NCBI GenBank assembly: GCA_021234155.1
Contig: JAJEKV010000064.1
Location: 6,388,001 to 6,452,000 of the forward strand
Direction: 5' to 3'
Origin: Isoetes taiwanensis
Taxonomy: Eukaryota; Streptophyta; Lycopodiopsida; Isoetales; Isoetaceae
Length of the DNA stretch: 64,000 nt
The notes below the pieces were generated by a model. It did no database searches. It was given only the letters and a program-made list of their open reading frames with translations, and was not told the DNA's origin. Made by a program: the position numbers and the translations under genes. The stretch's first letter is position 1, and every line of letters starts with the position of its first letter. This document shows, in pieces, positions 95 to 43,764 of the stretch.

Positions 95-1909
95 GTCAAT
101 CCAGATTAATACAGTATTTGGCATGGCGAGCACATCAACAAAAGTAATCTGCCCTCTACATGAACTAGTTAAGGTTCGTGTGACAGCAAAGACACCTCTA
201 AGATCTTATAATAACATTCATGGCCAGGGAAATGTCTTCAGTGTTGAACTTATCGATGAACATGTAACATATTTCCTCTTTGCTAACCAGATTTTCTATC
301 TTTGACTGTATTACTTACACATGACACTTGCAGGGAACAGAAATGCAAGCAACAATGTTCAAGGAAGCAGCACAAATGTTTTACGACAAGCTGGAAATTA
401 ACAAGGTAATATTCAAAAACAATCAGCACACGTACGATTTCAACAATTTCTTTTTTTTTCCTAATACACAGATGTACTACATTTCGAGAGCGACCCTGCG
501 CCACGCAAACAAACAGTACACGTCTATAAACAACGATTACCAACTCATACTGAATACACGCTCAATCGTTGAGGAAATTCCAGATGAAACTACATCTCAA
601 ATACCAATTCCCAAAGCATCCCAATCTTTCACTGAAATCAGCAAACTGCCACAATACATCAACAGTAAAATTTTGCTCGGTAAGTTTAAATACTTTTTCT
701 TCCTTTAAACAACTCTATTTCTACGTCTATATATACCTAATCTTTGTTTTATATTCAACAGATGTTATCGGCGTTGTTTCTCATGTCTCTTCAACAATGC
801 ATGTGCGAAGAAAACTAGACAATCAATTAATTCCAAGAAAGATTATCACGCTTCTAGACCAAAGGTATTCCAGCATTTTAAATTATCGAATAGATATTCA
901 ATTCAATATATACATATCTTAATGTAGAGTTTTGTGAAAAAAAAATCGCAGCCAAACCAAAGTCACTGTCACACTTTGGAATGAACTCGCTTTAAACGAC
1001 GGAAATCGATTGCTACAAATAATCGACCAAGCACCAATAGTAACAATCAGTCATCTCCGAATCAACACCTTCCAAGGTTTACAAATTGACTGATTTACGT
1101 ATCTCATTCTTATCCTTTCCATATATAACTTTTGCTAATCATTGAATCTTCTTTTCAACAGGTATTACCTTATCAACAACAAATACCAGCACTATACAAA
1201 TAAATCCAGATATTCCTGCTGTTGTTCATGGTTATTTCTTATCCTCTTTTCACGTCTTTTGTGACTTACACATTCTTTCTTTCATTAACTCACTTCTACT
1301 ATAGGTACAACGCTCATGGAAAAAATGCAAAATACATGGATACAGAGGCGGCTTTACTCCATACGAACAGAAATGAACCTACGACCCTGTTTGCACTCAA
1401 CGTACATTCATAGCAAACATGATACAACCAACAATCGATAAAAATAAGGTATTTTAATCATGACCACTTCATTTCCTTGATTATTTCAGATCTAATTACC
1501 CTTATTACAGCCTGCGTACTTCAACATTAAATGCTACATTAGCTTCATCGATCCAGAGCAACCCATGTGGTACCAGGTATGCATGACATGCAACAAAAAG
1601 ATAGCGAACGACGACAATAATTCCTGGTGCAATGACTGTCATAAAAATACAGATAGCTGCAACATTTCACCTATATCATCCGCAAACACAATAATAACGT
1701 CGTCCCTTTCTTTCCAGATATATATTATCATGTAGTCTAATAGATACAACTGCAGAAATAAGAGCTACTGCATTTGATCAAGAAGCGCAACAAATCCTTG
1801 GACATACTGCTGAAGAACTATCCAGGATGGAAAACCAGGTTAGTCCTCCTGCACAATGTCGGACAAAACAATCGTGTATGATAGTATTAACTATTTCTAT
1901 TTACAGTAA
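95..1909 (+). pseudogene. RPA1-like single-strand DNA-binding gene, left copy
   Basis: A multi-exon gene related to the large subunit of replication protein A, as carried by plant Helitrons, where it probably coats the single-stranded transposition intermediate. Exons joined by GT-AG borders give the OB-fold core (ICPLHEL, KVRVTAKTPLRSYNN, VFSVELIDEH, then GTEMQATMFKEAAQMFYDKL, MYYISRATLRHANKQY and a block with VTVTLWNELALNDG). The C-terminal zinc-binding domain has a CX2C pair (CMTCNKK and CNDCHKN) and ends with LIDTTAEIRATAFDQEAQQ and LGHTAEELSRMENQ. TAA at 1907-1909 directly follows the last acceptor. Compared with the right copy it lacks 24 bp (residues TPYETNWI) and has about 15 extra bases at the start. 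A stop also interrupts the block near 1370. It is probably not functional. The family is clear; exact exon ends are my reading. Confidence 0.8.
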
Positions 1910-2379
1910 TGCTCACAACAAACATACCGCGCAGAATTGACCCAGACTATTCCGCATTAGTGTCCTCCAAGTCGACTTCAATTATGACAAAAAAACAAAA
2001 GGTGGTTATTCGCCAAGTCACTCCGATAGATTGGAGCACCGAATGTATGTATATATTACGTCAAATAGACTCTCTTCACTCTTAAACTCTCACATCACTT
2101 TTGCTGTCCATATATTGTACCATCGTCCCAAAATCAATCTTAGAAAAACACTTTCTCAATACTAGCATAATTTAGCATGCAATCAATTGATTTTTTCTGC
2201 CAATAATTTCTAACTACACACAAGTCCTCTTTTTCAGGCTTATATTTGAATTTCAAGGCCGCGCTTTTTTGTGCTAATGATTTCTAAATACCCACAAATG
2301 CTCTTTTTCCAAAGCTACTTTTTCTTTATCTTCAACATAATATTCAGCCATAATATTGTCGTCACATGACTTTCTTATT

Positions 2380-2860
2380 CATAAAAACAAGGGCCTACGT
2401 TGCTCTTTAAATGACCTATGTTACTCTTGATTAACATGCAAATTGAAAATTTCTGTTATGTAATAATCTGAACTTAAAAATTCATTCTCCATGTTTACTC
2501 CATTCGATTAAATCGACAAGTACAACAGTAATATAAGTCCATCTCTTGATTAACATGCAAATTGAAAATTTCTGTTATATGTAATAATCTGAACTTTAAA
2601 ATTCATCCCCCGCGTTTACTCCAAATTGAAAATTTATGTTATGTAATAATCTGAACTTTAAACTCATCCTCCATGTTTACTCCATTCGATTAAATCGACA
2701 AGTACAACAGTAATATAAGTCCATCTCTTGATTAACATGCAAATTGAAAATTTCTGTTATATGTAATAATCTGAACTTTAAAATTCATCCCCCATGTTTA
2801 CTCCATCCGATTAAATCGACAAATACAACAGTAATATAAGCCCATTAAACCGTAACAATA
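2380..2860. repeat. AT-rich tandem repeat, about four units
   Basis: Repeated units each hold a run beginning TTAACATGCAAATTGAAAAT and then TAATAATCTGAACTT, a Cs-rich word, GTTTACTCCATTCGATTAAA and ACAACAGTAATATAAG. Units start near 2427, 2550, 2625 (partial) and 2738. The same array in reverse complement lies at about 11780-12110. It separates the convergent RPA and recombinase genes. Confidence 0.8.
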
Positions 2861-2929
2861 TTGAAACCTAATCTATCAAAATCATTTAGCATTTAACTAA
2901 TGCGGCGGCAACGCCGCCGCATGCCTGTC

Positions 2930-3335
2930 TTGTATATACAGTAAAATGTGTGTGCTGCGTTTTGTTTTTATAAATTGCAAACGTTGGTCCGAAAGGTGAC
3001 GTGGCGAGATCTGGGTCGTCGAGGGCGGAGGACAGCCGGCAGCTCGGATACACAGAGCTTTTGTTTGGAGATGAAAATGTAGCATTTAAATGCCTGCATG
3101 CATCGACACACCACCTCCTTTTCTAAAATTAGCGCAGTAAAATGTGTGTACTGTGTTTTGTTTTTAAAAATTGCAAAGGTTGGTCCGAAAGGTGCGTGGC
3201 GAGATCTGGGTCGTCGAGGGCGGAGGACGGCCGGCAGCTCGGATACACAGAGCTTTTGTTCGGAGATGAAAATGTAGCATTTAAATGCCCTCATGCATCG
3301 ACGCACCACCTCCTTTTCTAAAATTAGCGATCCTC
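2930..3335. repeat. Two tandem GC-rich units of about 195 bp
   Basis: Two direct copies, each with TTGGTCCGAAAGGTG, GGCGAGATCTGGGTCGTCGA, GGAGATGAAAATGTAGCATT and ACCACCTCCTTTTCTAAAAT. The pair is repeated in mirror order at about 11310-11720 in the right arm. I see no gene here; the open frames in it are by-products of high GC content. Confidence 0.8.
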
Positions 3336-3474
3336 CTCATCACGGGACCTTAAAAATTGAAACGGAAAATCAAACACCAGGAAAACAAATTACCCCTTCA
3401 TTTCCGCAATCCACACTTGCCCTTGATTACTGTCAAATTTGCTTAAAATTATAACGTGTAATCCTTCCTCCACC

Positions 3475-3720
3475 ATGCATAATTCTTTCTCCACTATAAA
3501 TTTTGCATTAACAATTCCATTACACAATTCCATTATACAATTTCACAAAGTTTCACAGTTTCACAATTTCACACAGTTTCCATTACAAGAGTTTCAGTAC
3601 AGTTCACAATTTTACAATTTCACACAGTTTCCATTACAAGAGTTTCCATTACACTTTCATTCCATAATTCCATTACAACAGTTTCATTACACAAAAACTT
3701 GGTTATCCCCAAAAAACTTC
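3475..3720. repeat. Minisatellite of TTCCATTACAAGAGTTTC-like units
   Basis: Short degenerate units built from TTTCACAGTTTCACAA and TTCCATTACAAGAGTTTC run through this segment. The reverse complement occurs at about 10946-11150. The left arm reads through from here to TTACACAAAAACTTGGTTAT without interruption. It is therefore the empty site for the two mobile elements inserted in the right arm. Confidence 0.75.
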
Positions 3721-5658
3721 ACAGATAAAACTTCATAAATAACACGGTCTTTAAGACCATTATCACCGAAAGTTCAAAACAGAAAACCAGAAAGTTGGTC
3801 GCAGATAAACCAGAAAACTTGGTCGCAGATAAAACCAGAAAGTTCAAACAGAAGAAACCTTGTACCAATGTAGTTCATGAAGAACCAGAACCTCGCCCCA
3901 GTGAAGAGACTATCACACCGAACAATGCTGCACCATCGACACCAAAATTGAACGTGCAATTACTGAAAGAACCCTAATTGCTGATTCTTGGCGCCATATA
4001 CTTTCCAATCGCTCTAGCGCTATCTGGATAGGTTTTACTCAATTCAGAATAGAAGTCATCGTCATAATCATCATCCTCCTTCTGTATTACTACCCTTGAT
4101 TGCTTCTTGACCAACTGTCGATGATTAAACACTTCAGAATCATTACTAGAAGAATCATTACCAGCAGGAACAACCACAGTAGGAACAACCACAGGACTAA
4201 CAATCACAGGAGGAACAACCGCAGGAGGAACGACCGCAGGAGACATCACAACACTATTTTCAATCGTTCATCGTGCTGCTACTTGCCTTACCATCAGAAA
4301 AATCAGAAACACGCAAAACTTTTGAAGCAATATTGCTCGAAATCTCGCCAAGGCATTTCGTAGACTCTTCATCTCTAGCAATTTGATCTGCAAAAAAATA
4401 ATGTCAGAAAATAAATAACAATTAAACAAAAACATTAAAAGAAACCAACAAACTTACCAGATAAAACTTTGGAAAAATCTCGACAATCAGGCTGTGAAAT
4501 GATATCCATACATGCTTTAATCTTGGATTCACGAGTGCGATCATATCTATAAAAAACTTGAACATTCACTAAAACAAGAATCAGACATTAATAACAAAAT
4601 AAAAGTTTTACTTTTCATATGATGATGTAGATTTATGGCCTGTAATCCTCATTCCATCAACCGCAGGAGTATCAGCAGCAGCAAGCCGAGAAATCAATGA
4701 CACTCTGCCACTTTTGTTACAAATCGATATTTTTGTTGACACAACAGAGGCCATGGTATTTAACCACTTGCCAAGATTATTAACACCAATTGGAGTAACA
4801 GAATACCATGCCTAATGAACAAACAAAAAGTAGTTAATACAACGTATAATGAACTAAATTAATTAAACATCTTACTTAACTAAAAATCAGAAATCAGACA
4901 CTTACCATTCCACGCGGCTTCGAGATAGGCTGAAGAAAAAACAGACGGGGCTCACTATCTTTCTCCTTTGCAGGCAAATGTCGCACGTATTGTTTAAATG
5001 TCAAGACAAAATCTCTCTCATAGGTCCAAATTGGCTGACGGAAGTCATGCTCATCAAACTTTGTTGCTGTAGGATTGCAGTTCTTGCTGATCCGCTCGCC
5101 ATACTTTACAAGCTCACCTCCATCATCTTTCTCTAATACTACATCACAGTCCTTAACTGAATGCAATTCCCTTACACCTCTAATGCCAAACCTCATAAGC
5201 ATAAAATAGACAAGTCTTTTTATGCAGCCATATGGGTTATCTGGTGATCAATATCAGCCAGAATCTCGCTCTCAACACCAAAAGAAATCGCAGGCGCCTT
5301 CTTCTTTGGCCTACCATAGTTTTCGCTCACCCTCGTCGTCTTTATCATTCCAATAAACGCCTCTTTACTCTGAGCAAAAATAGGATCCGTAAGAATATCA
5401 AAGGGAGGCTCATGAATCCCAGTTTGCCCTATCCTTTTCTCTTGCTCCCTTCTTAGAATTCTGCCATAAGCTCTATAAAGAGCACTTAACCTAGCAAAAG
5501 AAAGTAATAGTTAGCAAATAAACATTAACAAGCATAAAAAGTTTAAAAAATAACTAATATTACTTACGGCGATGGCGGATATAACTTTTTATCCTTCTTC
5601 TTCTTGACCTGACCGAAGCATAAACATCATGTAAAACCTAAAATACATTAAAACCTAA

Positions 5659-6785
5659 ATTCTGGGAAAGGACTCGCGAGAGACACAAAAACCGGCCGAC
5701 TACCAAAGGACTTCCTTCACTATAAACCCAAGCGCCGCGAAACCTCCAAGTGTTGAGTAGGATCGCGAAGCACATAGCGAGAATGAGAAGACGAGGAGCG
5801 CCAACGACCGTGAGTGCGCGCAGCATCATGTGGAACGCCCCGAGCGGCAGCTGCTGAAGCCCCTCCGCGACGAGCCGAATGAGTACCATAGCGGGATGGA
5901 TCCAAGCCGATAGCAAGAAGACACTCCCGCCACCACCCCCGAGCAGTCGGATAAGACAAAGGACGCAAAGAAGAAGGAGATGAACGAAAAAGGGGGCCGC
6001 CGGATGGAGGATCAAGGAGATGATAAGAACCGGTAGAAATCAAGCGCTGAAGGATAGAAACAGGGCATGCGAACGAAGGCAAGCGGGCTAAAGAAATCGT
6101 ATGACCGCGGGCAAGTTGGTCACGCTTGGAATGGCGAATAAGAAGATCCACATGCGATAAGGAAAAAGAAAGATCACGCCAATTGAGGGCAAGGGCCAAA
6201 CAACCGCGAAACCCCATGGAACAACGAGAATGAGGAATGTAAAACACCAGGACCCCAAAAGCTGGTGGAAGATAGCAAAATCCTGCAATACACAAAAAAC
6301 TCCAAAAAGAACACCCGTAAAGAGTTAGAGAAACAAGCCCATCCATAAAAAGAATCTGCATCAAGAAGCCGGAAAATATAAGGCATAAAAATAGACAGAA
6401 AAAGAGCATATAGCGTCACCGAGAAGGTGGAAAAAGCATCACCCAGCGGGTGGAAAACATAAGATATAAAGATGCATCACCCTCGAGGTGGAAATAAACA
6501 GCCCCATCCGCAAGCGGAGAAAAACACAGAAAAATGCCAAGGAAATAGCAACAATAAAAAAGGACGCCCATAAGTGAAAAACAACAAAAAGAGCCAGAAC
6601 CAATATCAATACAAATGAAAAAAGACATACACGCCCCAGCAGCAGGGCGGGAAGGGAGGGAAGCCACGAGAATGAAGAAAATGCTGCTGTGAGAAGACGC
6701 CGATAACCGGTCTGCGAATGGAACTAGCCTAATATAGGGGCTCGTCCTTTCCCAGAATGGCGATCCGATGGCTCGGATCGATGGG
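5659..6785 (-). mobile_element. Tyrosine-recombinase mobile element, coding copy (C)
   Basis: On the minus strand the element starts after AAT with CCC and a hairpin (CGATCCGA, four bases, TCGGATCG). It then has ATTCTGGGAAAGGAC and ends with its exact reverse complement GTCCTTTCCCAGAAT, so AAT borders both sides. Copies A and B in the right arm start with the same hairpin segment. Copy A also shares the subterminal AAGGAAGTCCTTTGGTA and a CGG-rich word near its 3' end. The element sits in intron 1 of the DUF3504-type recombinase gene, in the same orientation. Its GC content is well above the AT-rich intron around it. Length is 1127 bp. Its only recognisable coding part is the recombinase catalytic domain. 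Confidence 0.75.
5720..6284 (-). CDS. Tyrosine recombinase catalytic domain of element C
   Basis: The exon follows a good acceptor (T-rich tract then GCAG at about 6285) and runs open to the stop at 5720. About 188 residues hold the complete catalytic set: Arg in MGFRGCLALALNWRDL, Lys in LIRHSKRDQ, His-x-x-Arg in GTHSARRGGASAAAARG, Trp in THGRWRSSS and Tyr in HSRYVLRD. This pattern (THSxRRGGAS, GRWRS) is typical of tyrosine recombinases of the kind found in DIRS-like and related eukaryotic elements, and it is clearly different from the DUF3504-type gene around it. The enzyme would cut and rejoin DNA through a covalent 3'-phosphotyrosine. No N-terminal core-binding domain is visible. An upstream short exon (about 6667-6610, ending at a GTATGT donor) may supply the start. 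No frameshift or stop interrupts the domain. Confidence 0.8.
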
Positions 6786-7202
6786 ATTAAAAATCTAAAA
6801 CCTTAACCTAAGTTATTACAGACCTAAATTTATTACAGACCTGAACCTAAATATAAGACATTAACTAATAAAAATCACACATGAAAGCAAATTACCTGGA
6901 TAATAAACTTTGTCAGCATCTCGTTCAACTCCCTATGAGGTATCCTTTCAATAGAAATACTTGTATCACAATTGAAAGCTTTTCTCCACTCATCAAATCG
7001 CCTACGAGCCCAAGCATTAACGCTCTTCATCACTACTTCCATTAGTCTGCTCCATTTCAACAAGGATGGCTGCTCTCTCCTCAGCAGTTGGTGCTGCCTC
7101 ATCATTATCAGATGCAGAAACCCCTCCATCAGGAACACTAGATAGGAGCTCGACATCTTGAGAAAATAAGGTGAAAGAAGGTTCTGCCATCATCCCAGAA
7201 CA

Positions 7203-7335
7203 ACCCAAGGAATGCAGCTGCAGTGATTGTTTTCGGTCTACAACCGCACGCAACACAAAAACCACGAAAAGCAACCCAAGGAATGCTGCTACAGTGATTT
7301 TTTTCGGTCTACAACCGCATGCAAGCAGCAAACAC
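7203..7335. repeat. Tandem duplication, about 68-bp unit
   Basis: Two units share CAACCCAAGGAATGC, then CAGTGATT, a short T-rich word, TTCGGTCTACAACCGCA and GCAA. The repeat lies just upstream of the DUF3504-type recombinase start on the minus strand. Confidence 0.7.
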
Positions 7336-7340
7336 GACAT

Positions 7341-9082
7341 TCTTTTAGCTTATTGTCAATCTTACACAATAAGAATAGAGAATGTTGAAGATCTTAACCG
7401 CAAGAACTCGAAGCAAACGACCCTGTAAGCAGATTAGAAAAGATAAATTAGATTTATAAGATCAAAGCTCGGAAAAACAAGAACGATATCAGAAATCGTC
7501 ATTATCTTCAAATATTTGAAGCAGAAACAGTAAAAAGCTGACGATTTTTAAAGCAAAATGAGTAAGAAACCAACAATATCCCAACAACAGAAATATTTGA
7601 TGCAGAAACAACAAAGCCGAGGATCTTCGAAGCAGACGACCCTGCAAACATGATAGCATCAAAAACTTCGCATATTTACAAGAATACAACAACTGATGAA
7701 GATATTTACAAGATTTAAGAAAAATTCCTTTAAATCCTTTCTGAGCGCCGGGCCCTGAGTATTATCCATGCAACAGAACCACCTACAATCTGGCGCCTAC
7801 AAGCGCCTTGCCGACAACATCCCAACAACAGAAATATTTGATGCAGAAACAACAAAAAGCCGAGGATCTTCGAAGCAGACGACCCTGCAAACTTGTTTAC
7901 GGCTTGGCCAAGAAGTGGCTTTGGACTAAGAAACCAATTCCCAAAAGCAGAATGTAGATTGTAGGCCAAGTCAATGTCGATTGCTGGATAGGTAGACATG
8001 TTATCAATCACCCCATCATAATTGTACATTAACCCAGTACTTGTTGCCTGCCTTCTAGTAGAAAAAAAAATGGATAAAGGCATATCAAAATAAAAGCTCC
8101 CAAAATCCAAGCCTGCATGCCACGATTTGCCCGAGCCTGCGTCTCCCTTGCCCAAAAAAAAAAAAAACGCAATTTATCCAGCCAAAATACAAACCGTACA
8201 AACATGCCCCAATTTTGGCTCCCAAATACCCAATAGTAACCTTTAAAAAAACCCACAAATAACAACTTCCAAACCCATACAGTTTGCAAACCAGATGGTT
8301 TTGTCTATTCTATTCTATTCTATTCTTATGGGCAGTTTTATTGAAAGAATGCATTTGTTTAGATCGAGGAGTGACAAGAATAAGATTAATAGCATCGAGT
8401 CTTTTGTATATATCGAAGGCATGAAGGGTTTAAAAACTACGTATCTCTACGGGGGGGAGGGAGGGGTACGTTCACGTAGGGGCTCTCGGCGGCTCCGCCG
8501 GCCGCCCGCCTCGAGCCCCTAAGGGGCGTAACCCCCTCCCTCTCCCTCCCCTCCTGTGATTACGGGGACGTAATCCACACTTTGCCCTTGATTATGAACT
8601 TGGACGGACTGGAGGAGCTTGTAGGCGCCAGGGTGGTCCGCTTGCGTGCATAAGTTAGGTGGGAGTGGTGGTGTCCAGATGCACCGCTTAAATGCAAAGA
8701 TGGCGAGAGGAAGAAAGGTATAGAGACTGTTGGACAAAGAGATGGAAGAGAAACCCTATTGAAGGGGATGATTGGGTTGAGTTAGATACTATTTTATTTT
8801 CATGGACTCTAAAGGTCATCCCAGGCAAGACTGCTAGGGTTACAATACCCGTGGAAGTGAGGAAGAAAGCTATGATATCTCTAGGGGTCACTTCTGAGAA
8901 GTAATTGGCAATATGTAACTCGACATGCATATGTAAAATATTTTTAATTTTTAATGCAATCATATTGTGCTGTTATAAAAAAAAGTCACATTCTCGATGC
9001 AAATTTACTAACCCGGGAAAACGTTGCAGTGCCAAAATGGTCCAAAATCCTGACATAAATCCAATTTAAATGAATGATGGTT
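7341..9082. other. Non-duplicated spacer between the inverted arms, no supported gene
   Basis: It holds a roughly 75-bp direct repeat (about 7566-7650 and 7822-7895, with CAACAACAGAAATATTTGAT and CGAAGCAGACGACCCTGCAA), a TATTC microsatellite at about 8305-8325 and a GC-rich palindrome at 8450-8562. A 70-codon open frame at 8692-8904 (+) has motifs such as WVELDTILFSWTLKVIPG but I do not recognise it, and I would not call it a gene. Another minus-strand frame near 8040-7870 is also unrecognised. Confidence 0.6.
8450..8562. repeat. GC-rich palindrome with G-runs
   Basis: A left arm with GGGGGGGAGGGAGGGGTACG and ACGTAGGGGCTC faces a right arm with GAGCCCCTAAGGGGCGTA and CCCCCTCCCTCTCCCTCCCC. 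The centre is GC-only (CGGCGGCTCCGCCGGCCG). The G-runs could form a G-quadruplex. It may be the end of an unidentified element. Confidence 0.7.
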
Positions 9083-9690
9083 TATGGATATCATTTCACA
9101 GTCTGATTGTCGAGATTTTTCAAAGTTTTATCTGGTAAGTTTGTTGGTTTTTTTTAATGTTTTTGTTTAATTGTTATTTATTTTCTGACATTATTTATTT
9201 GCAGATCAAATTGCTAGAGATGAAGAGTCTAGGAAATGCCTTGGCGAGATTTCGAGCAATATTGCTTCAAAAGTTTTGCGTGTTTCTGATTTTTCTGATG
9301 GTAAGGCAAGTAGCAGCACGATGAACGATAAAGAAAATGGTGCTGTGATGTCTCCTGCGGTCGTTCCTCCTGCTATTGTTCCTCCTGTGGTTGTTCATCC
9401 TGCGATTGTTACTTCTGTGGTTGTTCCTCCTGTGGTTGTTCCTGCTGGTAATGATTCTCCTAGTAATAATTCTGAACTGTTTGATCATCGATAGTTGGTC
9501 AAGAAGCAATCAGAGGTAGTAATACAGAAGGAGGATGATGATTATGACGATGACTTCTATTCTGAATTGAGTAAAACCTATCCAGATAGTGCTAGAGCGA
9601 TTGGAAAGTATATGGTGCCAACAATCATCAATCAGGGTTCTTTCAGTAATTGCACGTTCAATTTTGGTGTCGATGGTGCATCATTGTTTT
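9083..9690 (+). pseudogene. 3' end of the DUF3504-type recombinase gene, right copy
   Basis: Only the last exons survive. The exon ending at TTATCTG before GTAAG matches the left-copy exon with MDIISQ and DCRDFSKVLSG. After an intron, an exon from about 9205 codes for QIARDEE, CLGEISSNIASKVLRVSDFS, then the VVPP-repeat tail and the acidic EDDDYDDDFYSELSKTYPDS block. The frame is better preserved than on the left (no 2-bp loss after ATGAACGAT), but TAG interrupts it near 9492 where the left copy has CAG. All catalytic exons are missing, because the arm stops at 9083. Confidence 0.75.
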
Positions 9691-9934
9691 GGTGTGATAG
9701 TCTCTGCACTGGGACGAGGTTTTGGTTCTTCATGAACTACATTGGTACGAGGTTTCTTCTGTTTGAACTTTCTGGTTTTATCTGCGACCAAGTTTTCTGG
9801 TTTTCTGGTTTATCTGCGACCAACTTTCTGGTTTTCTGTTTTGAACTTTCGGTGATAATGGTCTTAAAGACAAAGTGTTATCTGTGAAGGTTTATCTGTG
9901 ATGTTTTTTGGGGATAACCAAGTTTTTGTGTAAT

Positions 9935-10295
9935 CCCATCGATCCGAGACATCGGATCGCCATTCTAGAATGGGACGAGCATGCATGTTTTGCATGCATG
10001 CGGGCGGCGCATGCCCATTCTGGTTGGGAGTTCGCTATTTTAGGCGCGATTCTGCAGCAACATCTCATCGGCGCTTCCTCTTCTCTCTCAGCAGTACCTT
10101 ATTCTCTGTGATTTGTTTCCCAGGCAGGGGAGGGGCTTCTCCCTGCTTGGTTTGGCCAATTTGGCGTTTCTTTCTTGCTGTCATTTTCCGGCCTTTAGCC
10201 TTCGTCTTGTGACCTTCGTCCTCGATCCTAGTTTGTAAGGAAGTCCTTTGGTATTCGGGCGGTTTGTTGGTTTCATGCGAGTCCCATTCTAGAAT
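9935..10295 (+). mobile_element. Short non-coding member (A) of the tyrosine-recombinase element family
   Basis: It starts after AAT with the CGATCCGA/TCGGATCG hairpin, continues with ATTCTAGAATGGGAC and ends GTCCCATTCTAGAAT, the exact reverse complement. Near the 3' end it shares AAGGAAGTCCTTTGGTA with the coding copy C. No recombinase coding is present, so it would depend on an enzyme made elsewhere. The left arm has GTGTAAT joined directly to GAAACTG, so the flanks of A and B are a filled site. Length is 361 bp. Confidence 0.75.
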
Positions 10296-10945
10296 CCCAT
10301 CGATCCGAGACATCGGATCGCCATTCTAGAATGGGACGAGCATGCATGTTTTGCAATGCATGCGGGCGGCGCATGCCCATTCTGGTTGGGAGTTCGCTAT
10401 TTTAGGCGCGATTCTGTAGCAACATCTCATCGGCGCTTCCTCATCTCTCTCAGCAGTACCTTATTCTCTGTGAACCCACCCTCCCCCCCTTCTTTGTTTT
10501 TGTATTTTTATCGCGTGGCACGCGCGTAATCAGCCCCTCCACTCTGGGAGGTTTGTTTTGTCTTGTTGTTTTGTTGGTGATGTGCAGGTACAGGTGAGCG
10601 AGCGGCGTCTGTTTCGACTTTTCCATTCGTGGGTTTTGAGAGCGTTTTTTATGCCTTGCGTTTGTCCAAGCCCCTTGCCGAAGGCTTATCACTAGGGTTT
10701 TTCCTCGAAAACCTGAAAGGGCGGGGTTTTTTAATCCCGGTGATAAGCTTTCGGCAGGTACACTAGCCCAATCTCTATTAGCATTTTGTTGGGGTCCAAA
10801 TGATATAATTGGATTTTCCCTTTATTTTTGTGGGTAGTTCGCATGTGTGCGGCTACTCACTATCCACCATTGTAGAAAAATCTGCTGAGATGAATGAGAA
10901 GCAAGTCGGCGGTTTGTTGGTTTCATGCGAGTCCCATTCTAGAAT
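10296..10945 (+). mobile_element. Second non-coding member (B), joined head to tail to A
   Basis: B repeats the first roughly 190 bp of A, with a few differences (GTTTTGCAATGC for GTTTTGCATGC), then diverges. It ends with the same GCGAGTCCCATTCTAGAAT as A. The A-B joint is AGAAT followed directly by CCCATCGATCC, with a single shared AAT. B carries a hairpin with a conserved T- and G-rich loop (10672-10760) that recurs at about 36700-36800. I see no convincing coding sequence. Confidence 0.75.
10672..10760 (+). other. Structured hairpin with a conserved loop
   Basis: CTTGCCGAAGGCTTATCAC faces GTGATAAGCTTTCGGCAGG. The loop holds GGTTTTTCC, TCGAAAACC and GGGCGGGGTTTTTTAATCC. A second copy at about 36700-36800 has the same loop words but different stem bases that still pair. 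Confidence 0.6.
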
Positions 10946-12599
10946 GAAACTGTTGTAATGGAATTATGGAATGAAACTATAATGGAAACTCTTGTAATGG
11001 AAACTCTTGTAATGGAAACTGTGTGAAATTGTAAAATTGTAAACTGTACTGAAACTCTTGTAATGGAAACATTGTGAAATAGTGAAACTGTGAAACTTTG
11101 TGAAATTGTGTAATGGAATTGTTAATGCAAAATTTATGGTGGAGAAAGAATTCTGAATGGTGGAGGAAGGATTACACGTTATAATTTTAAGCAAATTTGA
11201 CAGTAATCAAGGGCAAGTGTGGATTACGGAAATGAAGGGGTAATTTTTTTTCCTGGTGTTTGATTTTCCGTTTCAATTTTGAAGTTCACGTGATGAGGAG
11301 GATCGCTAATTTTAGAAAAGGAGGTGGTGTGTCGATGCATGAGGGCGTTTAAATGCTACATTTTCATCTCCGAACAAAAGCTCTGTGTATCCGAGCTGCC
11401 GGCCGTCCTCCGCCCTCGACGGCCCAGATCTCACCATGTTACCTTTCGGACCAACTTTTGCAATTTATAAAAACAAAATGCAGCACATACATTTTACTGC
11501 GCTAATTTTAGAAAGGAGGTGGTGTGTCGATGCATGAGGGCGTTTAAATGCTACATTTTCATCTCCGAACAAAAGCTCTGTGTATCCGAGCTGCCGGCCG
11601 TCCTCCGTCCTCGACGACCCAGATCTCGCCACGTCACCTTTCGGACCAACCTTTGCAATTTATAAAAACAAAACGCAGCACACACATTTTACTGTATATA
11701 CAAGACAGGCATGCGGTGGCGTTGCCGCCACATTAGTTAAATGCTAAATGATTTTGATAGATTAGTTTTCAATATTGTTATGGTTTAATGGGCTTATATT
11801 ACTGTTGTATTTGCCGATTTATTCAGATGGAGTAAACATGGGGGATAAATTTTAAAGTTCAGATTATTACATATAACAGAAATTTTCAATTTGCATGTTA
11901 ATCAAGAGATGGACTTATATTACTATTGTACTTGTCGATTTAATCGAATGGAGTAAACATGGAGGATGAATTTTAAAGTTCAGATTATTAGATAACAGAA
12001 ATTTTCAATTTGGAGTAAACGTGCGGGATGAATTTTAAAGTTCAGATTATTACATAACAGAAATTTTCAATTTGCATGTTAATCAAGAGTAACGTAGGTC
12101 ATTTAAAGAGCAACATAGGCCCTGTTTTTATGAATAAGAAAGTCATGTGACGACAATATTGAAGATAAAGAAAAAGTAGCTAAAGAGCATTTGTGGGTAT
12201 TTAGAAATCATTAGCACAAAAAAGCGCGGCCCCTTGAAATTCAAATATAAGCCTGAAAAAGAGGACTTGTGTGTAGTTAGAAATCATTGGCAGAAAAAAT
12301 CGATTGATTGCATGCTAAATTATGCTAGTATTGAGAAAGTATTTTTCTAAGATTGATTTTGGGACGATGGTACAACATATGGACAGCGAAAGTGATGTGA
12401 GAGTTTACGAGTGAAGAGAGTCTATTTGACGTAATATATACATACATTCGGTGCTCCAATCTATCGGAGCGACTTGGCGAATAACCACCTTTTGTTTTTT
12501 GTTATAATTGAAGTCGACTTGGAGGACACTAATGCGCAATAGTCTCGGTATCCATGTTGCTTTTTTCAATTCTGCGCGGTATGTTTGTTGTGAGCATTC

Positions 12600-13985: not shown

Positions 13986-16201
13986 CTATGTTAGTAGTCT
14001 AGAAGAGTAAAAAATATGGGTTGTGCTTACCTGATTATTGGAGCAGTTCTTCGTAAACGATGTTCGTTGTTGTAAGTAATGTATTTTTTCGTCTAACAGA
14101 ATAAGTACATCTTCCATCCTTCTTATGTGTGTTAATGCCGTATATAACTGTCCATGCGCAAATACATTGTCTCTTAAATTCAATACCATTTTATCTAGCG
14201 TAAGACCTTGGCAGCTATTGAATGCTGTAGAGTACGCAAGTCTAAGAGGGAGTTGATGTCTATGAATTGTCCAAGATCTATTGTCTGGTTGATAAAAGAA
14301 ATCAACCCGATATATTGCGTGGCGTGTATTAGCTGATTTCGCAGTGTTTCCGATAATGGAGTTCTTCGATTACAACCCTTGCATTCTTGACCAGCCCCTT
14401 TTCCCTATCTAATGATTTCATTATATGGCAAATGGAACCAACTTTAAGAGATAATTCATGCTCTGGTATTCCTGGGTGCTTAAAATGCATTAGAAAATCT
14501 GGGTTCGCATATGGATGATCGTCTACACGCTGATCATCTTCGGTGATATGGTCCAAACTGTAATATTTGTTTTCCTCTGCCTCCAACAGTGTAAGTAGAT
14601 GTTTATTGAAATCATCAACATTGCGGTCAAGCACAGATAGGAATGCACGTTTTTCGCATTGCGATGAGTCGTTTAGTATTGCCGGTGGGTAGAGAAACTT
14701 AATTGCATCATCAAGACTCGTAGTTGTTGCAAATAGCTTTATAGAAACAGTTGGATTTTTGAAATCCTCTCCTATTTGATCTACATAATCTATTAGCTCT
14801 TTGTCTTCTGCATTACGGACTGGTTCATGTAATCAAAATGATTCCATAAGCTGCACGACTTTATTGAGGCATTGATATCTGCGGTTTTTCCTGCTCCTCG
14901 AACGATGGGAGCTACTTGCCTAAAATCACCAGCCGTTATAATGCATTTCCCACCAAATGGTTCCTTGTTTTCGCATAAATCCTGAAGTAGATTATTTACT
15001 GCCAAAATTACAACTTTGTTTGCCATCGGGAACTCATCCCATATTATCACGGTACTTTTCATAAGAAGCTCTGCATATCCAGATTTCTTGGACATTAAAG
15101 AATGGACAGTTACATTGTTCTCCACTACGGGTATCTGGAATATTGAATGAGCTGTTCTTCCACTGGGATAAAGTAATGCAGCAAGTGCCGTCGTTCCACA
15201 TGGCAATGTTATGAGCTTGGATGCTCTTGTATATAAGCATAGTGCGTTAAGCAAATATGTCTTACCTGTGCCTGCCTTTCCATCGATGAAAATTAGTTTG
15301 GCTGGGTTGTTTTTGTCTATCATAGAGCGTATAACATCAAATACTTGCCGGTGATTCTTATTGAAGGAAGTTAACATCTGATTAAAGGTCGTCTTGTATG
15401 CATCTAAATCTGCAAATTGGGAAAGCTCGTTGAGGATTTCTCTACTCATATATGTTCTTATTGGCAATCCAAAGGCAGCGACACTTGTAGAGTGTTGAAG
15501 CGATGTCTCGTTTATCAAATGCAAGCATTCATTGTAAGCTAATTCTTCATTATCTATATATCTGTAACCATGTCTTTTGACGTTATATTTCTGTATTTAT
15601 TCCATACATCTGTTGCAGGTGCTTCATCCATTAATAACAATGCAAATAGAAATCCAAGTTGGCTAGGCGTTAATGCCAAAGCCACAGCTTCTTGCATGAC
15701 CAAATCAGATTCATTCTTTGCGTCTGTCAAGCTAAATGCTTCTGCTGCTTTCTGATATGTTGGATATTCCACGCTGTCTACTATTTTCACATCAGTCCAA
15801 GACCTGCATGGTTTGTGTAAAAGCAGTTGTCGCAAATAGAACACTTCTCCTGCGCGTGGAAGCAATAATCGAATTCGGCATACCAGAGTTTTTTTTCCAC
15901 GTTTTCTAACGATGTTAACTGGAGTATGTCAATTATGTATCTCAACATCATCCTGTACTGTTCTTAGATGTAGTTTATCAGGAAGCAACATATACTTTTC
16001 GTAACATTCTAAATATATTATGTTGTCTAATTCCGGATTAGCTGGTCGTAGAAAGTATCTATCCAGTAATGATAATGACAACGGTGACTTTCCTTTTCTA
16101 TTGAATTGTTGTTTATTTTCACCTGGTAAATGTAATGGAAGACACTTAACAGCTGGTGTCTTTTTAGTAATATTGTAACCCAATATCCGCCAAGCTGCCA
16201 A
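13986..16201 (-). pseudogene. Helitron helicase (Pif1-like), 5'-truncated
   Basis: Helicase half of a Helitron Rep-helicase protein, which unwinds DNA during rolling-circle transposition. Read 16201 to 13986, it has the inter-domain segment AAWRILGYNITKKTPAVKCL and LPRAGEVFYLRQLLLHKP. The Walker A motif is DGKAGTGKTYLLNALC, the Walker B region IIWDEFPM, then CIITAGDFRQVAPIV, GIPEHELSLKVGS and AYSTAFNSCQGLTL. The last motif is GQLYTALTHIRR. The frame shifts near 14820 (between NHFDYMNQSV and HEPVRNAEDKEL) and changes again near 14330, the latter possibly an intron. The HUH Rep nuclease part is absent: sequence above 16201 is unrelated. This copy cannot start transposition alone. Confidence 0.85.
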
Positions 16202-36134: not shown

Positions 36135-37740
36135 ATGGCTCATACAAGTTCTCCAGCATTGCGCAGCCCTCACGAAGAAGATTCAGAGGGATCTGTTCAT
36201 TATGCACCACCAACATATGCTTCCAGACGTGGTACTTCAGAAAATCCACTTGAAGATTTGAGTGCATTATTAGCACCACCTCCTCCAATGTACAATGGCA
36301 CGAGCAATCCAGAAGATTTTCTCAAAGTGTTCAAAACATATTATGAAAACTACGGACATCGGAAAGGAGATATTGTATCTGTTTTCAGCAAAAGCATGGA
36401 AGGAGAAGCGGAATCTTGGTTCGATTTCTTCATTACATACAAAAGCCAAGCATGGGAAGATCTAGCCAAAGGCTTGGTGGAGAGATTTGGAATATTACTT
36501 GATGAAGGGAATTTGCTACAAAACTTAATGTCCTTTTCCCTTAACACACCGTCAGTACGTGCCCTGGGGTCATACATCCAGGAGGTACTGGACCTGCGAG
36601 GTCACCTTTGCCCCCGCCTGGCTGTCCGCTGACTAGGCACTACGGGGGTGGTGCATGACTGTATATATTGGGATGTTTCTGCATTTTATATGATTAGCAC
36701 AGTTTGTCAGCAGGCTGATTGCTGCCACGGTTTTTCCCTCGAAAACCCTTCGGGGCGGGGGTTTTTTAATCCGGGCAGTAATCCGCTTGCTGCATTTTTG
36801 TATATAGACCGATTGGTCTCCGTGGACGATAAAAGTACCTTCCTTCCTTCCTTCCTTCCTTCCTTAGACGAGGAGAAAGCGTGAAGTCTTATGTTGAGAG
36901 ATTTTCCAAATGCATCAAAGCTTGTAAGGATAGCAAGGTGGAGACTTCTAACCTGCAATTAATTTACTGTTTTGTGCAAGGTTTGCAGCCAATGCCTTCA
37001 TTGTACCAAAAGTTATGCAAGTTACAATCTCGAGGCCAGCTTTGTTCTATAGTACAGGCATTCTCAACTGCTGAAAATTACTGTAAAGGTTATGGATGGT
37101 GTCTCACAGATACATCATCTCATGCATCCCCAAGTTATTGGGAAAAGGAGAATATGGGAAATGCCAATGGACATGCTCCAGTTTATGTTGTTAAATCAGA
37201 GAAATTTGAGAAGAAAGAACTTGCAGATATAAAGGCTGAATTTGAAAAAGCAAGAGAGGAGATGCAGCATAAGGAAAAGATGCAGGCTGAGATGTTGCAG
37301 CAAACTCAGCTACAAATGAAACAGATGATGGATGACGTGACAAAACAATTTAAGGAGATAGCCACAAACAAGGAGAGCAAATATCCTCCCAAGTTGTGCA
37401 CTATTTGCAAAAAACAAGGGCATTCTGAGAGTTCTTGTTGGTCCAAAGAATGTGAAAAGTGTCATCAAGTGCGTGCACATTATGCTAAGCCATGCCCATG
37501 GTGTACTATATGTTCATCATGGGGACACGATGAAGAGCATTGCCATGTACGTGCCTATATGGCCAAGATGAAGGACAGTAACAAAGTGCCATCAGAATCT
37601 ACAAGTTTCCTTATTGGTTGCAACCATGGAGAGGGACCTGTGATGGCTGTCACTACTAGGCAGCAGGAAAAAGCACAAGCCAAAGAAAAAATATTGGAAA
37701 AACATGTAACATTTGATGAACCTGCTCGGAGAAATGATAT
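36135..37740 (+). pseudogene. gag: gag of the gypsy element, interrupted by an insertion
   Basis: It starts MAHTSSPALRSPHEE. The capsid part has PPPPMYNGTSNPEDFLKVF, GEAESWFDFF and WEDLAKGLVERFG. After the insertion at 36538-36865 it resumes with RRGESVKSYVERFSKCIKAC and VQGLQPMPSLYQKLC. Next comes a coiled-coil-like Lys/Glu/Gln stretch (about 37200-37370). Two CCHC zinc knuckles follow: CTICKKQGHSESSC and CTICSSWGHDEEHC (each CX2CX4HX4C), with a Cys/His-rich link between. Gag packages the element RNA in cytoplasmic particles. Joining MSL to RRGES restores a continuous frame, so the insertion is the only large break here. The frame continues without a stop into protease. Confidence 0.8.
36538..36865 (+). 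mobile_element. SINE-like insertion in gag with (CCTT)n tail
   Basis: About 328 bp between TTAATGTCCTT and AGACGAGG of gag. It carries the hairpin with the conserved GGTTTTTCCC, TCGAAAACCC and GGGTTTTTTAATCC loop (about 36700-36800). It ends in a CCTT repeat at about 36838-36866, which merges with a TCCTT target word. No coding sequence. Tail and size suggest a SINE, but I cannot place clear A and B boxes. Confidence 0.55.
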
Positions 37741-38419
37741 TAGCATCTTGCCTGGTCAGCAACCAACCTTACATGCTCACGATCACCATGTGCAAGCACT
37801 TCTAAGGAGCGCCAAGGTGAATTTAGATTTGTTCACTTTATTTAGCATTGCTCCATCGTACAGGGATAGTCTCTTTAAGTTGCTAAGACCAGCTGATAAG
37901 AATGTTTCAGAATCAACCACCTACATGCTCAATGATGTGAGATGTGACGATCCAGGCGTATTTTCTTGTGCCGCCAACATTGGAGAGTTCCATGTAAGGA
38001 GAATAGTTCTGGATGGTGGTTCAGGACTTAATATTATGCCATATGAGGTGATGCTGAAGTTAGGCTTAAAAATATCAAAGCCCTCAAATTTAACACTGAG
38101 ATCCTTTACACAAGAAAGAGTGAGTCCCTTAGGTGAAATTGATGAGGTTAACGTGGAGGTTGAAGGAGTAAAAATGAGCCTTCCTTTCGTTGTGATTTCC
38201 TTTAGGGAGCAGAGCAATAGCGACTATGATTTGTTGCTTGGAAGAACTTGGCTCTTCGCTGTTGACGCGAGACCCATTTGGAGGCAAGGTATATGTTCTA
38301 TCACAGATGGCAAGGGCCGTACCGCATATGTTTATAATAAGAAGGGACGAGACACATATAGTGTAGGCCTCATTTGTGCAACCCATATCCCAAGGCCATT
38401 ATATCATGCATATTCCTGA
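37741..38419 (+). CDS. Retropepsin-like protease region of the gypsy polyprotein
   Basis: Downstream of gag in the same open frame. The aspartic protease signature is IVLDGGSGLNIMPYEV, with Asp-Gly-Gly-Ser-Gly in place of the common DSGS/DTGA. The second-half motif is YDLLLGRTWLFAVDARP. The enzyme cuts Gag-Pol into mature parts inside the virus-like particle. An inverted near copy of its first half lies at about 43765-44140. The frame stays open to TGA at 38417-38419, after which decoding shifts into the RNase H-like block. Confidence 0.75.
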
Positions 38420-38459
38420 AGTACTTGAAAGTATTGAGGTGGGTTCCATGCTGGTTGAT

Positions 38460-38890
38460 AGTACACCAGCAAATATGCGCAAAGCTGCTAGGCTTTGGTT
38501 TGATGGGGGTTACTCAGCCAAGTTTCCACTTGCTGCCACGGGATTTGTGCCGAAAGACAATGAAGGCAGACTAATAGAAAAAGCTGGAGCAGTCATTCCT
38601 CAATGCACTTCAAATGAAATGCCGCAGAATACTATGCACTTTTTGAAGGTATTCAAATTGCACTTGTCCATAATGTTACAGATTTAAATGTATATGGAGA
38701 CTTCTTCTTGGTGTGCCAACAGGTTAGTGGCGAATTTAGAACAAAAAATGCTTTTTGAATGGAACTTAAAATGAAAATACTAGACCTGGTGAATAAATTC
38801 AAAAGTTTTTCTATTGAGCATATTCCACGCAGCCAAAATTCAGAAGCTGACGCACTTTGCAGGGAAGCACTTTGGAAAGAAATATGTGAG
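38460..38890 (+). pseudogene. Extra RNase H domain located between protease and reverse transcriptase
   Basis: Frame-corrected reading gives a full RNase H fold: ARLWFDGGYSAKFPLAATGF (first Asp), then NAAEYYALFEGIQIALVHNV (Glu), DLNVYGDFFLVCQQVSGEF (second Asp), and SFSIEHIPRSQNSEADALC (final Asp). All four acidic positions are present. Two one-base shifts (about 38618 and 38755) break it in this copy. It resembles the extra archaeal-type RNase H of plant Tat-lineage elements. There, as I recall, it follows the gypsy RNase H rather than preceding RT. The usual gypsy RNase H is also present downstream. The fold call is strong; the lineage call is inference. Confidence 0.75.
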
Positions 38891-38939
38891 GGAGTTATTT
38901 TAGAAGAGAAATCGCCTCTAGACTTTGACAAGCATTTTC

Positions 38940-39775
38940 AGGAAATTCTCGTGATTGATACAAAATTGGAGACGGATGTAAAAGATGTAGATGTCTTTAA
39001 GAATGGGCATAATAGGACCTTGTCTATTGGGAAGTTGGCTAACTGTGCTGAAACAGAGGGGTTACAGCAACTATTTCAGTCTTATAGCGATTGCTTTGCA
39101 TGGGAGTACAAGGAGTTGAAAGGTATACCATCTGATGTTTGCCAGTTAGAGATCAACTTGAAGCCTGGGTCAAAACCTGTGAAACAAAAGCTAAGAAGAA
39201 TCAACCCCATGTTATTATCTTTGGTGCAAGAGGAGATTCAAAAGCTCTTAGATGTTGGGTTTATTTATGCAATTGACAATCCCTCGTGGGTGAGTTGCAT
39301 TGTGCCCGTTTTAAAGAAGAATGGGAAGCTTCGTATATGCATTGATTATCAAGAGCTTAATAAAGCCACACTAAAGGATTGTTATCCTCTACCATTTCAA
39401 GAGGAGGTCTTATATAAAGTAGCAGGTCAGGAAATCTTTTCCTTTATGGACGGGTTCTCGGGCTTTAACCAAATTTCCATTCGCCTTGAAGATCAGCCAA
39501 AGACAGCGTTTATAACTCCATGGGGTACTTATGCTATGCGGGCCATGCCGTTTGGCCTTATGAATGCACAGGCCACATTTCAAAAAGCAATGGTAAAAGC
39601 ATTTCAGCCGTTGGGAGAAAAAGGACCGGGTATATTCTTGGATGATTTATGCTATGCTACTGCTCGTTTTGATCATGCATCGGGATTGCAGGCTATATTT
39701 GAACAATGTAGGCAATTTAAGATATGTTTAAATCCATCCACGTGCAAGTTTTTGTTGAGGAAGGTACTTTATTAG
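38940..39775 (+). CDS. Reverse transcriptase region of the gypsy polyprotein
   Basis: It starts with the linker LQQLFQSYSDCFAWEYKELK. RT motifs run in order: LRRINPMLLSLVQEEIQKLL, PSWVSCIVPVLKKNGKLRIC, DYQELNKATLKDCYPLP, FSFMDGFSGFNQISI, KTAFITPWGTYAMRAMPFGL, NAQATFQKAM and FLDDLC. The catalytic box is FLDD rather than the usual YIDD or YVDD. Both Asp residues of the box and the Asp of FMDG remain. A stop at 39773-39775 after LLRKVLY shifts the frame into the next domain (shared sequence around 39724). The enzyme would copy element RNA into DNA. Confidence 0.8.
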
Positions 39776-40450
39776 GGCATAAGGTGTCAAAGCAGGGAGT
39801 GCAGATTGATCAAACAAAGGTGGAGCTTATTGAGCACTTGCCGCAGCCTTCCACACTCAAGCATGTGAAAAAGCTCATTGGGCAGTGCTCTTTTTTGCGC
39901 ATTCATGTTCCTAATTTTTCACATATAATCAGCCCAATCACGAAGTTAACGAGAATGGGACATGTGCCTAAGGGAAAGAGTCATACAGTGCAGATTTATT
40001 GGTCTAAGGAATGCCAAAAGGCATTCGAGACTCTTGTCCAGGTTATGAAAGCGCCATCTACAATCGTAGCTCCAAATTTTGATGTGCCATTTATAGCATT
40101 TGTTTCAGTCACTCAGTGGGCAGTCGGGATAGCTTTGTGTCAGCAAACTGCTCCCAAAGTTAGACAAGTGGTTTGTTATTCTGGTAAACAGTGGTCTAGA
40201 GCAGAAGAACGATATCCGGAGCTGGAAAAGTATGCTGCAGGACTTGTATGTTTGTTTGAAAAGCACGGGCATTATTTGTTGCAGCAATACACAACGGTCA
40301 TCATGAAGCAGAATCCATTGCCCATGCTTATGGGGAAAACTTTCAAGAAAGCAAAATTTCAGCGATGGATTGTCTACTTGAGCCAGTTCTCCTTTAAAGT
40401 GCAGGTGTTACAAGGTAAATCGTGTCCAAGCTCTTATCTTCCTTATGCTT
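39776..40450 (+). CDS. Gypsy-type RNase H region, degenerate
   Basis: It continues from the RT thumb (LGHKVSKQGVQIDQTKVELI, LIGQCSFLRIHVPNFSHII). WSKECQKAFETLVQVMKAPS and FDVPFIAFVSVTQWAVGIAL follow, then YPELEKYAAGLVCLFEKHGH. The position normally holding the first catalytic Asp (VTDAS-like) reads VSVTQ, so activity is doubtful. Loss here beside an intact-looking extra RNase H would fit a hand-over of function. No third RNase H lies between this and the integrase. Confidence 0.7.
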
Positions 40451-40559
40451 TTCCAAAATTTTGTGGAGGAGAATGTGGTGATGTAGATGATATTAAGCCT
40501 GCCAAAGAATCTATTGCATTTTTGCTGGATGCTGATTTCTCATGGATGTACCCTATCAA

Positions 40560-41790
40560 ACAATATCTAGGATCACAAACCTTACCGCATGGTATGTCTG
40601 CGAAGGAGCTTGCCAAGTTTAAACATGCATGTTTGTCATACGTCCTTGTGGGAGATATTTTATGCAGGAAGGGTCAGGATGGTGTCCTATTGAGATGCAT
40701 TGGTGAGGCTGGAAAGGGGAGGGCATACTTATAGAATGCCATGCTTGGTGCATGTGGAGGACACTTTGGAGGTGATGCCACTGCCAAAAAGTCCTTCGCA
40801 AGCAGTTATTACCGGCCTTCCCTATTTAGAGATTGTTATGAATTTTCCAAAAGTTGTCGAACTTGCCGTATGTGCTCAGAAATTTTGCAGCCGCGATACA
40901 TTAGGTTCTAGCGAGTCCTTTGGTCCCTTTATGAAGTGGGGACTTGATTTTGTGGGCCCAATTGATCCGCCATCATCTGCACACCATTGTTATGTGATAG
41001 TAGCCACTTGCTATTTTACTAAATGGGCAGAGGCAATGCCAACTAAAACAAACAACCCAAGAGGTTACCGCTTCATTTCTCTATCATCAAGTAGTGACAA
41101 GGTTTGGAGTACCCGTATATATTGTGTCGATAGGGAAAAACATTTTGTTAATGGTGTCATACAGATCTTCTAAGAATTTTGGGCACGAAACATCTCAAGA
41201 GTTCAGCCTATTACCCACGGGGTAATGGCCAGTAAAGCACAAATAAGTCCCTTATGGGCATTATAAAGAAGGAGGTTGTATCTTCCAATAAGCGTGACGG
41301 CATAGCAAGTTATCACCGCTCTTTGGGCCTATAGGACAAGCGAAAAAGTTGCAAACACAAGATACCCCATTCAAGCTCGTTTATGGGTTGGAGGTCATTT
41401 TGCCTATTGAACTTAAAGTGCCTTCTCTTCGCATAGCTATTGCAGGTTGCACAAATGATGTTGATACGCTGCAAACTCGCTTAGATATGCTGTAAGCTTT
41501 GGATGAACACAGGTACAAATCAGATTTGAATATTCAAATGAAAAAAAAGCAGAGATCAAGCTCTATTCCGTAGGAACAATCAGTTGAAAGGAGAATTTCA
41601 AATTGGTGAACTTGTTTGGAAATGGAATAAAGCTCGAGAGAACCATTCGACAAAGTTTGAAGTGCTGTGGCAGGGTCCTTATATTATTATAGGAGTTGCA
41701 GGCCAGAATTCATACAGTCTTCAAGATTTTGATGGACATGATTTGCCTAATCCCATCAATGGCTATTTGCTGAAATCATTCAGAGCATAG
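40560..41790 (+). pseudogene. Integrase region, first copy, frameshifted
   Basis: ELAKFKHACLSYVLVGDILC leads in. A one-base insertion near 40745 breaks the HHCC zinc region, which is intact in the second copy. The core reads KWGLDFVGPIDPPSSAHHCY and CYFTKWAEAMPTK, then shifts. Later blocks are TPFKLVYGLEVILPIELKVP and, at the C-terminus, GELVWKWNKARENHSTKFEV, WQGPYIIIGV and PINGYLLKSFRA (GPY/F-type module). The stop is 36 bp before the middle LTR. Several stops between 41170 and 41580 make it non-functional. Confidence 0.75.
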
Positions 41791-41823
41791 GCTGAGAGAC
41801 CAGCCTCTTATTTTGGGCATTCA

Positions 41824-43757: not shown

Positions 43758-43764
43758 TGAATGG

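Follow-up and report, generated by a model that had tools for sequence, protein, structure and literature searches.

Organization of the two insertions in the window

The window analysed here is a 64,000-nucleotide (nt) stretch of the Isoetes taiwanensis genome (contig JAJEKV010000064.1, positions 6,388,001 to 6,452,000, forward strand) and contains two insertions, at 5659-6788 and 9932-10945. Judged from sequence, both probably belong to a DIRS-order, PAT-like family of tyrosine recombinase (YR) retrotransposons that would move through RNA, reverse transcription, joining of the ends of the complementary DNA (cDNA) and YR-mediated integration. Rearranged genomic copies of the family seem to record how the DNA copy would be circularised before insertion. 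A preliminary description of the window had instead presented three separate compact YR elements. Relatives were searched for in the I. taiwanensis assembly, which holds 1,658,258,908 bases in 1110 contigs.

The insertion at 9932-10945 is a non-autonomous element of approximately 1 kb. Its start repeat (A) and end repeat (B) each occur twice, and they are separated by two unique parts (X and Y). The features are as follows.

9932..10945, plus strand: non-autonomous split-direct-repeat element of the order A1-X-B1-A2-Y-B2, 1014 nt counting the left AAT
9932..10111, plus strand: A1 repeat (direct repeats), with AAT, hairpin at 9940-9959 and inner arm at 9962-9976
10112..10257, plus strand: X, unique sequence inside the first half, located between the repeats
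10258..10295, plus strand: B1 repeat (direct repeat) with the terminal arm GTCCCATTCTAGAAT
10281..10337, plus strand: putative B1-A2 circle-junction site of 57 nt (arm, AAT, spacer with hairpin, inverted arm), 876 genomic copies
10293..10473, plus strand: A2 repeat (direct repeats)
10474..10907, plus strand: Y, the 3' part separating A2 and B2, located between the repeats
10908..10945, plus strand: B2 repeat (direct repeat), its left border variable among copies
3576..3818, minus strand: unoccupied paralog of the site that carries the 9932-10945 insertion (empty-site alignment)

Self-comparison of the window shows that 9932-10295 and 10296-10945 share a common start of approximately 180 nt and a common end of 38 nt. 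The element therefore has split direct repeats, and it contains no open reading frames (ORFs). Empty paralogs were found with the joined flanks, and all three that were aligned read GTGTAAT followed directly by GAAACTG, with a single AAT and without either half. Because these sites lack both halves, 9932-10945 is a single insertion, and the segments 9935-10295 and 10296-10945, previously counted as two copies, are its halves. In 39 of the 40 full copies scored, a second A directly follows the first unit, in two cases through only 53 matching nt.

The insertion at 5659-6788 carries coding sequence and was aligned to L021, a long relative described below.

5659..6788, minus strand: autonomous-family copy in rearranged form, with A-Y' fused to YR'-B (order in relatives, alignment, empty sites)
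6196..6788, minus strand: A and the first part of Y, corresponding to L021 element positions 7398-7991 (alignment to L021)
5659..6197, minus strand: 3' part of the YR gene and B, corresponding to L021 element positions 6863-7400 (alignment to L021)

Both segments are 98-99% identical to L021, and the genome search found many relatives that carry this sequence in the opposite order, its positions 599-1137 being followed by 8-600. The ORF at 5720-6409 is chimeric, part Y and part YR. Of the residues which we take to be catalytic (Arg, Lys, HxxR, His/Trp and Tyr), the alignment shows all to be retained except the first Arg, which was removed with its carrier motif FLRISE by the join between Y and YR. 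The copy had been described as a complete coding element ending at 6785 with every catalytic residue in place; it is a rearranged fragment, it ends at 6788 once its AAT is included, and the residue assignment holds for all but the first Arg. Its empty site is clean, with one AAT in the three paralogs aligned, and at neither insertion (3/3 aligned each) is there a further target duplication. No relative of the window ORF was found in the Protein Data Bank (PDB), and the best PDB match of the YR (Tre/Cre recombinases, E=0.049) is too weak for use.

Long copies and their genes

Four long copies (L021-L024) were picked for having both the B1-A2 junction and B2, and they are putative full copies of 6.4-8.3 kb. 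Self-comparison finds split direct repeats in all four of this preselected sample, with A1 (126-138 nt) recurring as A2 and B1 (36-41 nt) as B2. No long inverted termini were found in the four copies by the same method, their ends carrying direct A and B repeats. Inside L021 and L023 there is hardly any alignment between the two. The order of a full copy is A1, 5' intron, gag, reverse transcriptase (RT)/ribonuclease H (RNase H), YR, B1-A2, Y, tail and B2.

The RT of L021 matches RVT_1 above the cut-off (E=1.9e-15), the RNase H models match the element below the cut-off (E=0.02-0.053), and the L021 YR of 340 aa is recognised with E=4.3e-8. The Arg-Lys-HxxR-His/Trp-Tyr set is present in L021 and in 11 of 12 further YR ORFs (L044-L056 without L054), the remaining one (L056) having His in place of the first Arg. 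Inspection by eye shows a gag zinc finger of the form CX2CX4HX4C (CTFCGRFRHTADNC) in ORFs of L021, L022 and L024, and the Pfam gag and zinc-knuckle models returned no match to the zinc-finger ORFs of L021 and L024. Most of the RT region is missing from L022 and L024 through internal deletions.

The preliminary description had placed the plan of these units outside both DIRS and Crypton elements, on the ground that DIRS elements have split repeats and RT and that Cryptons usually lack inverted ends. The order of parts in the relatives, the self-comparisons and the RT put its segments inside a larger DIRS-order element, and split direct repeats are what is found. It had named two observations that would speak against a compact plan, namely segments internal to a larger element and ends that do not covary; the former was found and the latter was not, as shown in the next section.

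L054 and 14 other matches to PF00589 cover only approximately the C-terminal half of the model, in open frames of up to 420 aa, and may represent a second YR gene class in this genome.

The B-A junction and its covarying arms

The hairpin CGATCCGA/TCGGATCG, the AAT borders and the two exact 15-nt inverted pairs, ATTCTAGAATGGGAC/GTCCCATTCTAGAAT in the short units and ATTCTGGGAAAGGAC/GTCCTTTCCCAGAAT in the coding copy, are present in the window where they had been reported. Junctions were counted with a 57-nt pattern (arm, spacer with hairpin, arm) at no more than two mismatches, and the control was the pattern read backwards. The genome contains 876 short-arm junctions (445+431) and 128 long-arm junctions (63+65), far more than chance would give, and the controls gave 0 for both. 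Mixed-arm junctions, searched genome-wide in both orders, number 0 and 0, which bears out the earlier claim that the inverted ends change together. Of the 128 long-arm rows, 100 were listed, and 32 of these show compensating changes in the two arms (GTCCCTT...GGGAAGGGAC); in the same 100 rows the change is on the A arm only in 4 and on the B arm only in 0. These rows are copies of a few families rather than independent events.

A junction-like site lies behind the YR in 12 of the 13 loci fetched for diverse YR matches, L054 being the one without it. Arms and hairpin differ jointly between families: in ten of these loci the arms are CCCATCCTAGGAATG...CATTCCTTGGATGGG and the enclosed hairpin is GGTTCTATTGC/GCAATAGAACC, each allowing for near variants, and L052 and L055 carry arm and hairpin versions of their own. 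The inverted arms flank a putative internal circle junction, which is likely the recombination substrate. The identity of the arms requires no copying between them, because both adjoin in the internal B1-A2 and a symmetric recombinase site explains the match. It is the direct repeats that require copying, A1 being derived from A2 and B2 from B1. Of the two explanations first offered for the identical ends, the circle junction is thus retained as the likely substrate, and templating of one arm by the other is unneeded.

Permuted copies, joins and a lost intron

Forty loci with a Y end, the top-scoring among 1601 first-look candidates (27 newly fetched and 13 from earlier comparisons), were classified by what lies to the left of A and to the right of Y. 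The classes are B with B2 (24 loci), B with none (6), flank with B2 (1) and flank with none (9). L016 and L079 were counted in the first class despite a degenerate B2 and a changed Y end, respectively, and for L077, L083 and L015 of this class the B arm was taken from the letters at the expected position. The window copy, C996 and C1089 stand outside this count. Left and right states are associated (Fisher p=1.5e-4), in line with the route proposed below, although the value does not come from independent events, because the loci were preselected and share ancestry. The flank before A ends in AAT in all ten flank-left loci.

The Y end is GCC(TATC)n of variable length. In L024 the tail before B2 has grown to a long (CTAT)n run, with few units at the other loci listed. 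After the tail, permuted copies continue with element position 91 (C996), 113 (C1076), 6889 (C1075) or approximately 7210 (C1049). Two other tails are joined in the forward sense to the short family, at its positions 159 (L017) and 192 (L080), and three are joined tail to tail with its reverse Y end, at 976 (L063), 976 (C907a) and 970 (L066); in L064 an inverted Y follows the tail. The joins sit where cDNA ends would be: one partner is the tail, and the other is the presumed RNA 5' end or a point of truncation. Outside the 40 loci, B followed by flank closes C1089 and the window copy.

The 5' intron of L024 has the donor CTTTGGAAG followed by GTACGC and the acceptor CTTTTTCCAG followed by GTCATTGAGCTGATG, the latter beginning GTCATTG. 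The permuted copy C1076 reads CTTTGGAAG directly followed by GTCATTGAGCTGATG, so that the 5' GT-AG intron is missing exactly, and this indicates an RNA intermediate. The donor site is kept in L021, L022, L024 and the permuted C996.

Proposed mechanism and alternative explanations

The following route is proposed for the family. The presumed RNA would begin at approximately position 91 of A1 and finish with the GCC(TATC)n tail that ends Y, as the joins suggest, and would be reverse transcribed. During this step the cDNA end may shift from A1 to A2, where the sequence is identical, recopying the start of A together with approximately 20-41 nt of B; we infer this transfer because the left border of B2 is ragged among copies. 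The cDNA ends, whose joins are seen in integrated copies, would then be closed into a circle, and the YR would presumably recombine the B-A site, with its inverted arms around the hairpin, with a target AAT and without further duplication. With the A1-to-A2 transfer, the circle would hold both B'-A1 and B1-A2, and integration through B'-A1 would give a canonical split-repeat element such as that at 9932-10945. Without the transfer, or where the cDNA is 5'-truncated, the internal B1-A2 would be the sole site and the product would read flank, A, Y, tail, join, remaining element, YR, B and flank. The copy at 5659-6788 may be of this permuted kind with a further internal loss, or it may come from a cDNA without its 3' end.

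Held more tentatively, at a little under an even chance, is a broader version in which split direct repeats are one outcome of general cDNA end joining, and any product with one B-A site can be integrated by the recombinase. The joining partners would be the molecule itself, 5'-truncated ends, the cDNAs of other families or two tails, and the joining activity would be non-templated and probably of host origin.

A number of observations weigh against the proposed route. The placement of the RNA ends relies on the joins and on a TATA-like box picked out by eye. The join in the window copy lies inside Y, at L021 position 7991, and not at the tail. The arms in the 12 YR-bearing relatives are inverted with one mismatch (two in L049) and are never exact. 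The left border of the short family is AAT in six of eight copies, and those of C996 and C1089 are GAT and AGT. The sequence after Y is unmatched by the references in L068, L082, C1041 and C1051 and gives one weak match in L073 (330 nt past Y were covered in L068 and L073, and approximately 4 kb in C1041 and C1051), and other sequence is present at the joins of C1045 (before its YR end) and C1089. Just four of the nine loci with flank and none have a right end of B followed by flank (C1076, C1049 with its last base changed, C1075 and C1045), and C996 has no right end within 9.3 kb. L034, which reads flank-A-Y-B2-flank, fits neither the canonical nor the permuted form directly. Only one copy without the intron was found (C1076), the permuted C996 keeping the donor. 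Lastly, the match of the C-terminal part of the L021 pol to the Pfam Dam model is weak (E=0.04, 14 bits, cut-off 28.1).

Permuted copies could also have arisen within canonical elements by deletion, unequal recombination or nested insertion of DNA, without any end-joined cDNA. Events of this kind do occur, as in the 5.5-kb insertion in L026 and the internal deletions in L022 and L024, and the extra sequence at the C1045 and C1089 joins and the unmatched sequence after Y at several loci would suit them. They are nonetheless an unlikely source, since the GT-AG intron is lost exactly in C1076, the joins start at the Y tail, AAT stands at the A border in 10/10 flank-left loci and the window copy has a clean empty site. 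The YR itself might shuffle modules, with A...B units cut out and re-inserted between B-A sites like cassettes. L034, in which a lone A-Y-B2 module stands between AAT-bearing flanks and which is perhaps a product of excision by the recombinase, would be such a unit, but a solo module is found at only one of the 40 loci, and exchange between B-A sites would neither make tail joins nor remove an intron; shuffling is accordingly very improbable. A new class of compact YR DNA transposon with covarying inverted ends would account for the covariation of the arms and for the compactness of a unit whose empty site is clean. The units align inside split-repeat elements that encode RT, however, the YR of the window copy is truncated and the two short units are one insertion, all of which makes such a class scarcely credible. 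The cDNA end-joining route remains the probable explanation of the family.

Other features of the window and related loci

The region 5540-11070 of the window has multi-copy flanks at both insertions, and paralogs of the two insertion sites are no more than approximately 30 kb apart on C1072, C907, C940, C396, C92 and C930, so both insertions seem to lie in one larger repeated unit. A long terminal repeat (LTR) retrotransposon with the Gypsy domain order occupies 36135-45004 on the plus strand, encoding weakly matching gag and protease followed by RT, RNase H and integrase. On the minus strand, 49363-51264 encodes a pentatricopeptide repeat (PPR) protein whose further domains are E, E+ and DYW deaminase; PPR-DYW proteins are typical of land plants, and this gene is consistent with a land plant genome, as are matches to the LEAFY SAM domain. 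A fragment of a PIF1-type helicase, a protein found in Helitrons, is located at 14793-15524, also on the minus strand. Within the related locus L026, a 5.5-kb insertion (1052-6573) starts with CACAA inside the A2 hairpin and shows a 3-nt overlap, such as a CACTA transposon might presumably leave.

Relation to known YR elements

Cryptons encode a tyrosine recombinase and no RT. The full Isoetes family shares the recombinase and differs by having RT, and a Crypton reading was dropped on that account. A Helitron-like reading of the hairpin and inverted ends was also dropped, as the YR, RT and split repeats contradict it.

In its split repeats, the position of the internal repeats, its RT and its zinc finger, the family agrees with the PAT-like group of PMC4157794. 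The echinoderm form of Pat1 (PMC4157794) has the same A1-B1-A2-B2 repeats, internal repeats downstream of the YR, RT-RNase H and a zinc-finger gag; the Isoetes family differs in its land plant host, the 15-nt inverted arms around the B-A hairpin, a weak methylase-like match and permuted integrated copies. Ngaro and VIPER share the order A1-[ORFs]-B1-A2-B2 (PMC8547959, PMC6681497), and VIPER has a short A2-B2 derivative, SIRE (PMC8547959, PMC6681497). SIRE consists of A2-B2 only, whereas the 1-kb Isoetes element has both halves. The methylase domain is missing in Ngaro and VIPER (PMC3266345, PMC4157794), in contrast to the weak, sub-cut-off Dam-like match here.

For DIRS-1 of Dictyostelium, the same route has been proposed, in which the ends of an incomplete transcript are restored from an internal copy and the cDNA is self-ligated into a circle and integrated by the YR (PMC5633606). 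End restoration and self-ligation were proposed in 1985 and a circular DNA has been reported, but the 2017 review does not regard the mechanism as fully proven (PMC5633606). The LTRs of DIRS-1 are inverted and the element contains an internal complementary region, whereas the Isoetes family has split direct repeats and, in addition, integrated copies that seem to have skipped end restoration.

Among plants, a 2022 review assigns DIRS to green algae only and omits them for land plants (PMC9033089), a 2011 survey did not detect DIRS1-like elements in streptophytes (PMC3266345), and no complete ALOG-type elements are given for streptophytes in PMC3537659. The name has already been used for a land plant, as the C-fern repeat table annotates 361 elements (45 kb) as DIRS. 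The main texts of two Isoetes genome papers (one being PMC8566536) contain no word beginning with DIRS. A literature search on partly accessible texts, which did not cover the Goodwin and Poulter papers, returned no account of permuted integrated DIRS copies or of Isoetes DIRS elements. What is new here is the permuted integrated copies, in which the tail is joined to the RNA 5' side or to a 5'-truncated point.

The Isoetes genome holds approximately 1000 B-A junctions (876 and 128). Their covarying arms define a likely recombinase site together with its natural variants. The integrated copies with apparently joined cDNA ends, whether truncated, spliced or mixed, make the circle-closing step testable, and if the broader version of end joining is true, a vascular-plant genome would preserve the spectrum of end-joining products as integrated copies.

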